Source of the DNA: Phyllobacteriaceae bacterium
Lineage (GTDB): Bacteria > Pseudomonadota > Alphaproteobacteria > Rhizobiales > Rhizobiaceae
Length of the DNA: 61,391 bases
Assembly: GCA_023954255.1 (NCBI GenBank)
Contig: JAMLIH010000013.1
Coordinates: 1-61,391, forward strand
Direction of reading: 5' to 3'
In this document: piece after piece, positions 52,875 to 54,511 of the stretch
Layout: each line of letters begins with the position of its first letter
How positions within the stretch are numbered: the stretch's first letter is position 1
Notes under the pieces: generated by a model
Told to the model about the DNA's origin: nothing
Databases searched by the model: none
What the model saw: the letters and a program-made list of their open reading frames with translations, nothing else
Program-made: the position numbers and the translations under genes

Positions 52875-54233
52875 ATGGCGTCGCATGGACCGGTAGCGCC
52901 GATGACTGCAAGCAGGACGAAATCCCTTTCGGGAACCGCGGCAGTACCCGGTGACAAATCCATATCCCACCGTTCCGTGCTTCTCGGAGGGCTGGCCAGC
53001 GGCACGACAAGGATTACAGGCCTGCTGGAAGGTGAGGATGTGCTCAATTCCATCAAGGCAAGCCGGGCGCTTGGCGCACAGGCCCTAAAGGAAGGCGATC
53101 AGTGGATCGTTCAGGGCGCCGGCAACGGTCTGCTGCTGGAACCCGGGGCGGCAATCGACTTCGGCAATTCCGGCACCGGCTGCCGCCTCTATATGGGGCT
53201 TGTCGGCAGTTATGATTTTCCCGTCACTTTCGAAGGGGACGCCTCGCTTTCGAAACGCCCCATGGGGCGCATCATCGATCCCCTGAAGCTGATGGGAACG
53301 CAGCTTGTCGACAGCCGGGAGGGTTGCCGCCTGCCGATCACCTTTCGCGGCCCGCGTGTTGCAGCGCCCATCGAGTACCGCGTGCCGATGCCGTCGGCCC
53401 AGGTGAAATCGGCCGTCCTGCTTGCCGGCCTCAACGCGCCGGGGATTACCACGGTCATTGAAGCAGTCATGACCCGTGATCACAGCGAGAAGATGCTGGC
53501 AGGCTTCGGCGCGGCCATCGAGGTGGAAACGGCGGCCGATGGAACCCGCACCATCCGGCTCCAGGGGCAGGGGAGGTTGACGGGCTGCGACATTCAGGTG
53601 CCGTCCGATCCTTCTTCAGCCGCCTTTCCCATCGTTGCGGCGCTGATCGTGCCGGACAGCGATGTGAGCCTGCCAAACATTCTGATGAATCCGACCCGCA
53701 CGGGCCTCATTACCACCTTGCTGGAAATGGGTGCGGACATTGAAATTGCCAATGAGCGCGAAAGCGGCGGTGAAATGATTGCCGATCTGCGCGTGCACTC
53801 CTCGCAGTTGAAAGGCGTGACCGTGCCGGGCAGCCGCTCGGCCTCGATGATAGATGAATATCCGGTGCTGGCGGTTGCCGCCGCCTTTGCCGAGGGCGAG
53901 ACGGTGATGGAGGATGTCGGCGAGTTGCGGGTAAAGGAAAGCGACCGCCTTGCAGCCGTTGCCGAAGGCCTCAGGGCCAACGGTGTTGTCTGCGAGGAGG
54001 GCAAGGACTGGCTGAAGGTGACCGGAACGCCAGGCGGCAAGGGGCTGGGCGGCGCGGGTTCCGGCAGCGTCCCTCCGGTTGCCACCCATCTCGATCACCG
54101 CATTGCCATGAGCTTCCTGGTCATGGGGCTGGCTGCCGAAAAGCCTGTGATGATCGACGATGCCTCCCCGATCGCCACCAGTTTCCCGGAATTCGTGCCG
54201 CTGATGCAGGGTCTCGGCGCGGCACTGGAATGA
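52875..54233 (+). CDS. aroA: 3-phosphoshikimate 1-carboxyvinyltransferase (EPSP synthase, class II) AroA
   Basis: Transfers enolpyruvate from PEP to shikimate-3-phosphate. 452 residues beginning MASHGP, like other rhizobial enzymes. Conserved segments: [86 protein letters not shown] and [15 protein letters not shown]. At the position of Ala100 in the glyphosate-tolerant CP4 enzyme this protein has the common Gly (GNSGTG). Its stop overlaps the ATG of the AT-rich frame that runs into cmk. Confidence 0.97.
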
Positions 54234-54511
54234 GAGAGCCACCGGACAGCATTGATACTCAAATATGGGTCAGGATGAGTCCTTGGTATAAGGCTGCTCA
54301 ACGCGCCTCCCATTTGGCGCATATTGAAAAAGCAGATGATCCCGAATTTAAAGAAATTTTGTTAAACTCGCTTCGTCATTTTGAAGAGTTCAGTGAGTCG
54401 ATTGGCTTTGTAGAAGGTTGGTCTGAAGTAGGTCATAATTTCGTTGAGGTCAGATGGCTTCCGCACAAACTGCGATATGCTTATGACTATCGCTATCTGA
54501 CGGAGATATTT
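54230..54511 (+). other. AT-rich open segment in frame with cmk (possible N-terminal extension or inserted gene remnant)
   Basis: 94 codons from an ATG overlapping the aroA stop to the cmk start, with no stop, so translation from 54230 would give a 305-residue fusion with cytidylate kinase. By hand count 54241-54480 is 105/240 G+C (44%), against about 65% in the first line of cmk. The translation is helical, with no family I recognise: [16 protein letters not shown]..., [36 protein letters not shown]. Normal cmk has no such domain, and cmk has its own TTG start with GGAG at 54502-54505. Likely a recently acquired piece. Confidence 0.6.

Follow-up and report, generated by a model that had tools for sequence, protein, structure and literature searches.

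Between aroA and cmk in the window (the whole stretch of DNA analysed here, 61,391 nucleotides from a Phyllobacteriaceae bacterium) lies an AT-rich segment that is open in frame with the cytidylate kinase (CMK) behind it, which raises the question of whether the kinase has gained a new N-terminal domain or simply has an inserted piece of DNA in front of it. The gene order is aroA, 278 bp, the conserved part of cmk and then rpsA (from 55384, plus strand; NF004955, 1068.9 bits). The aroA gene (3-phosphoshikimate 1-carboxyvinyltransferase; 52875..54233, plus strand, 452 residues) is intact, scoring 413.4 bits with NCBIfam TIGR01356 (cut-off 287.25), and aligns with the copies of five congeners at 68–87% identity. 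The insert spans 54234..54511 (plus strand); its true ends are uncertain by ~15 bp, and its length is probably about 265–282 bp. A candidate start of the extended frame, ATG at 54230..54232 (plus strand), overlaps the aroA stop codon TGA at 54231–54233 as ATGA, as the sequence-only reading had stated. From this ATG, 94 codons are open up to a TTG at 54512..54514 (plus strand), a possible ordinary CMK start that reads M-I-I-A-I-D-G, and the frame runs on to the cmk stop at 55147, giving 305 residues in total. A Shine–Dalgarno-like GGAG (54502..54505, plus strand) lies within the insert, 6 nt 5' of the TTG. With the 305-residue frame as the query, the cmk core (54512..55147, plus strand) is identified as a cytidylate kinase by Pfam PF02224 (188.6 bits, E 1.6e-55, cut-off 26) and by NCBIfam TIGR00017 (178.5 bits, cut-off 135.55), and these matches begin at residue 95 or 97. 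Upstream of aroA, on the minus strand at 52149–52748, is a TIGR02300 (FYDLN_acid) protein (76.4 bits, cut-off 41.65) with a long acidic low-complexity tail.

The insert has a G+C content of 43.5%. Its flanks are richer, at 63.8% for the 900 bp that end with the aroA stop and 62.0% for the initial 600 bp of cmk, which bears out the earlier hand count of ~44% against ~65% in cmk. The 300 bp block 54301–54600 has a G+C fraction of 0.477, and the sole lower block in the window is 23701–24000 (0.470). The three plus frames of the insert contain 0, 5 and 11 stop codons, confirming the description of 94 stop-free codons in the cmk frame with stops in the other plus frames. Of 20,000 shuffles that preserved dinucleotides, 0.39% kept the cmk frame free of stops, 1.0% had some plus frame free of them and 3.6% some frame among the six; the frame is open beyond what chance provides, if not overwhelmingly so. 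Three-base periodicity exceeds chance weakly (as much is seen in 172 of 5000 shuffles), and it does not single out a frame, as its value differs little between the phases (12.4, 12.9 and 13.8). The G+C fractions at the three codon positions of the open frame (0.53, 0.36 and 0.40) have a coding-like order, and G-rich first and A-rich second positions agree with the cmk frame. The open frame, the periodicity and the codon positions moderately favour a coding segment.

It is unlikely, in our view, that the insert is a noncoding leader or mobile-element scrap, open by chance, with CMK made from TTG 54512. The shuffle frequencies for the cmk frame and for any plus frame are not negligible on the scale of a genome, and no family or relative of the segment was found, as would suit such an origin. 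The codon positions, however, have a coding-like make-up, and there is a start codon in overlap with the aroA stop. Furthermore, Rfam gave no match up to E 1 over 54100–54700, the predicted RNA fold of the insert is not unusual (z −0.20), the insert region has one short inverted repeat (10 nt), and a scan of 54100–54700 gave neither a promoter-like site on the plus strand nor a terminator-like site.

The aroA–cmk spacing in close relatives, which had been put forward as a check on the idea of an insertion, supports it. Six genomes of the genus were available (G001–G006); cmk was found in five of them and not in G005 (77% complete), and the junction was read in G001, G002, G003, G004 and G006. 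The AT-rich insert is absent from all five junctions, and in two of them, G004 and G002, the genes are practically joined, only 4 bp separating the aroA stop from the conserved part of cmk, with the candidate cmk start inside aroA. The aroA and cmk genes of G004 are each 87% identical to those of the window. In G003 a gap of 1153 bp holds an HTH-type protein (Pfam matches just below the cut-offs) and a PIN_10 protein (E 1.7e-17), and the stop codon of the PIN-like gene overlaps the cmk start. The gaps in G006 and G001 are 585 and 554 bp; the ORF in each looks membrane-type by eye and is without a Pfam match at E up to 0.01. When the insert was searched as protein against the six congeners, just one weak match came up, in G006 (E 0.098), away from the aroA–cmk locus. 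Given its absence from the congener junctions, the segment is counted as an insertion on the branch to the window's genome and, as far as these genomes show, it would have arisen there. No target-site duplication was seen: 54190–54560 contains no direct repeat of at least 8 nt, and the TGA found at both ends of the insert is too short to count.

The junction was then compared across Hyphomicrobiales in 110 loci: 25 of the 30 from a first cmk set (the window included), five congener stretches and 80 from a second set. Five of the first 30 had been replaced by longer stretches, and all of the loci are best cmk matches and hence a non-random sample. An aroA gene was found in 89 of them; the other 21, some perhaps lacking it for their short flank, were excluded from the count. 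In 48 loci no more than 60 bp separate aroA from the conserved cmk start (including L082, with an aberrant −639); the gap is 60–150 bp in three, 150–450 bp in three, 450–800 bp in 20 and more than 800 bp in 15. As many of the loci are related, and L022 and L070 are the same sequence, these counts are not of independent events. The remaining two gaps of 150–450 bp run into a stop in the cmk frame within 39 codons (L059, 257 bp) and 15 codons (L128, 252 bp); a different frame of the L128 gap, which is 75% G+C, is free of stops. Nine of the 88 other loci with readable junctions likewise keep the cmk frame open for more than 30 codons (34 to 253 codons, two of the nine being the same sequence), all in gaps of 61–69% G+C with ORFs in other frames, and these cases are less telling because stop codons are rarer at that composition. 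What is peculiar to the insert is an open frame in AT-rich DNA with no other plus-frame ORF of at least 40 codons.

Ten ORFs from nine of the gaps were scanned with Pfam. They include a short-chain dehydrogenase (SDR; L055), a DsbA-like protein (L016), a periplasmic-binding-like protein (L083), a zeta-toxin-like protein (L114, 2348–3004), an AbiEii-like nucleotidyltransferase that falls below the cut-off (L110, about 2004–3004) and, on the minus strand of a congener stretch (L050, 1499–2613), an HTH match below the cut-off together with PIN_10; the ORFs of L087, L052 and L053 have no Pfam match. By eye, ORFs at about 2004–3004 in L121 and L133 resemble the AbiEii-like ORF. In L087 (Mesorhizobium camelthorni) the stretch 1829–2967 holds an HTH-type gene, whose product shares 66% identity with the G003 HTH protein, and behind it an ORF similar by eye to the PIN protein of G003, which ends 21 bp before the cmk start. 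We take this HTH/PIN-like pair between aroA and cmk to be of the VapBC type; its presence at the same junction in a congener and in M. camelthorni could reflect either repeated insertion or old inheritance. The gap is lower in G+C than its flanks in all seven gap-bearing loci measured, the window included, and several SDR-type gaps are of ordinary G+C (0.61–0.66). From these comparisons of sequence, the aroA–cmk junction looks like an insertion-prone site, often with extra genes that are toxin–antitoxin-like in some genomes. The insert itself gave no sign of such cargo, having no Pfam match above cut-off and no PADLOC or PHROGs match, and its best match to the ORFs of the other junctions has E 1.

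The way in which the neighbouring cargo ends bears on a further alternative, namely that the insert is a separate small gene that properly ends at the cmk start and was fused to it by a small 3' indel, either real or a sequencing error. Directly across the TTG the +1 frame has TGA and TAA in tandem, much as the PIN-like gene of G003 stops across the cmk start and its equivalent in L087 stops just ahead of it. The +1 frame is, however, already closed by TGA at 54498–54500, so that only the last few codons could be involved, and there is no protein relative to mark the proper end of the gene; we regard this origin as distinctly unlikely. The assembly (139 contigs, 91.79% complete, 4.05% contamination) is unlikely to contain a chimeric join here, as the genes on either side of the insert are those expected there, but a single-base error near the 3' end of the insert would alter the fusion reading. 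The alternative first offered alongside a domain insertion, a gene whose 3' end was lost into cmk, is possible, and no relative was found that shows the missing part.

Database searches with the 94 residues yielded no convincing relative, in keeping with the initial remark that no family was recognized. They pass no Pfam cut-off, with FCSD_central alone appearing below its own, and NCBIfam gave nothing up to E 10. The best E values were 0.58 among PDB sequences, 0.87 among PDB folds (Foldseek, with a low-confidence model as the query), 2 among plasmids and 6 among phages. The viral contigs gave a match of 26 residues, to a protein of an Alteromonas phage, with E 3e-5, a value that holds among the candidate stretches only. 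A pattern search of genome contigs, which detects close relatives only, gave 25 matches and no relative, and in overlapping sets of 394, 297, 385, 398 and 360 genomes the best non-self match has E 9.6e-4, for one genome. The window's own genome has no second copy at the protein level up to E 10; at the DNA level the best other match among those listed is 23 bp long (22 of 23 bases, contig 14; E 0.004). The DNA matches on contig 14 and contig 54 were considered as copies and rejected, as by eye the surrounding sequence looks unrelated. No publication title was found that concerns an insert between aroA and cmk. The segment is best filed as a lineage-specific orphan in an operon junction; what is unusual about it is that its frame runs on into a core enzyme.

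The sub-threshold Pfam match raises the prospect that the insert is a diverged scrap of a gene for the flavoprotein of flavocytochrome c sulfide dehydrogenase (FCSD). The FCSD_central model (PF21706) gives E 0.063 with the 94 residues and 0.04 with 79 residues, at 13.8 and 14.5 bits against a gathering cut-off of 27. Residues of about 24–81 align at 37–42% with eight confirmed family proteins, the source of the best genome-set match, and a profile built from those eight scores 23.0 bits, which 0 of 5000 shuffles reach; these eight were, however, chosen for resembling the query. A profile of unselected members (17 from 24 loci, seven frames not having been recovered by the filter) gives 10.6 bits, which none of the 3021 shuffles reported reach. 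Its E of 9.5e-6 is per comparison and amounts to about 0.2 over a Pfam-sized library, and the resemblance is therefore treated as chance. The genome does carry such a gene, but this copy gives only 7.5 bits and shares words of no more than 11 bases with the insert. The predicted order of the insert (helix–helix–strands) is also unlike that of the FCSD_central region, which we take to be helix–strand–helix–strand. Descent from FCSD is thus very improbable. The FCSD flavoprotein gene of the window's genome lies at 31911–32258 of contig C85 (L144), and four of the six congeners have one as well.

Whether the open frame is used as part of the kinase depends on where translation starts. The duplex with an assumed anti-Shine–Dalgarno sequence has an energy of −2.7 kcal/mol at ATG 54230 and −6.6 kcal/mol at TTG 54512, with its GGAG. 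Eight of the 264 positions in the insert reach −6.6, as do 173 of 5000 positions drawn at random from the window and 131 of 3000 15-mers obtained by shuffling; a site of this quality is expected by chance in about 3–4% of cases and is only mildly unusual. Because the Shine–Dalgarno match at ATG 54230 is weak, entry there would be mainly by coupling from aroA. In 24 of the 89 loci cmk starts at the codon equivalent to TTG 54512, as an ATG reading MIIAID or MIVAID with a 4 nt overlap with aroA, the starts having been assigned by a nearest-ATG rule. The congener candidate starts lie upstream of the TTG codon, by two codons in G006 and four in G001–G004, and a non-ATG candidate start occurs in only three of the 35 loci with gaps of more than 450 bp (G003, L014 and L087); a TTG is thus not the usual outcome of insertion. 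Even so, our view is that the usual CMK product most probably starts at TTG 54512.

A true fusion, in which CMK is mainly the 305-residue form, entered by coupling from aroA, and the orphan segment is its new N-terminal domain, is rather unlikely. It would account directly for the unbroken frame and the ATGA overlap, and for it speak also the upstream starts of the congeners and the tolerance of CMK for N-terminal partners, as represented by the NCBIfam AroA–CMK and PanC–CMK models, whose CMK parts match the core. A single-sequence AlphaFold model (mean pLDDT 55.2) shows a helical hairpin at residues 18–57 and low confidence elsewhere. In a second model, with 27 CMKs from the set of 80 loci aligned behind the extension, the CMK core is mostly above pLDDT 90, so modelled even behind the extension, which counts for the fusion; the hairpin is at about 75, and residues 1–14 and 59–91 are below 50. 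A helical hairpin at residues 18–57 is accordingly predicted with moderate confidence. That only this part is so predicted, and that the better ribosome-binding site is at TTG 54512, count against the fusion. The original proposal of a recent in-frame insertion that gave CMK a new N-terminal domain is thus supported as to the insertion, its foreign composition and its frame, but not as to the use as a domain, given the GGAG-preceded start and the one hairpin modelled with moderate confidence.

The explanation that we prefer, at about an even chance of being right, is that the insert is a foreign ORF without a stop of its own, entered by coupling from aroA, with a 305-residue form possible and ordinary CMK made from TTG 54512. 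About 270–280 bp of foreign AT-rich DNA would have been inserted between aroA and cmk, at a junction where inserted genes are common, bringing one ORF that belongs to no known family and begins with an ATG in overlap with the aroA stop. Through this overlap, ribosomes ending aroA could restart there; as the frame has no stop within the insert, translation from ATG 54230 must yield the long form, and a 305-residue CMK with an orphan front end could thus be made. Ordinary CMK would use the GGAG that the insert supplies. For this explanation we count the rarity of open frames among the shuffles, the weak periodicity, the 4 bp junctions of G004 and G002, the inserts in G003, G006 and G001, the closed cmk frames of the L059 and L128 gaps, the GGAG and the 24 loci with a cmk start at the TTG codon; against it, the ATGA overlap and the unbroken frame fit the long form as a real product equally well, and the upstream starts of the congeners, the scarcity of non-ATG starts behind long gaps, the nine other loci with an open cmk frame and the stop-free frame of L128 also count. 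The insert is known from one genome, without homologues. That an essential kinase has captured the orphan ORF in frame and now has two forms, of 305 and about 211 residues, as an early stage of domain birth by insertion, is a more speculative step and one that we hold to be doubtful.

If the long form is made, a core enzyme would have gained an unrelated front segment in a single step, while congeners still show the site in its empty state. If it is not, the ribosome-binding site that came with the foreign insert would explain how the operon survived it. In both cases, the aroA–cmk junction would be a recurrent place for extra genes, some of them toxin–antitoxin-like, that is open to systematic study.

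Three known systems invite comparison. Rickettsia palindromic elements insert in frame into genes, are palindromic and are repeated in the genome. The likeness is an extra in-frame segment in a protein gene of an alphaproteobacterium; the insert, however, has no palindrome, one copy at the protein level and no excess of RNA folding. The AroA–CMK (NF008816) and PanC–CMK (NF010004) fusions resemble the extended frame in having CMK and an N-terminal partner in one frame, and in AroA–CMK the partner is the same neighbouring gene. As CMK occurs behind other enzymes, a long N-terminus is compatible with it. The partner in both is a known enzyme, whereas the front part here is a 94-residue orphan. 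The protein here belongs to neither kind. In the window aroA has a stop of its own (TGA, 54233) and is followed by an ORF in a different frame; NF008816 (cut-off 943) gives 181.5 bits with the CMK frame, over the CMK part only, and 147.7 bits with AroA, while NF010004 gives 162.9 bits against a cut-off of 524 and matches the CMK part alone. A likeness in position exists with the junction genes of Hyphomicrobiales, which occupy the same site, with a gap that is lower in G+C than its flanks at the seven loci measured. The other junction ORFs examined end in their own stop codons before or just across the cmk start, whereas the ORF of the insert reads into cmk.
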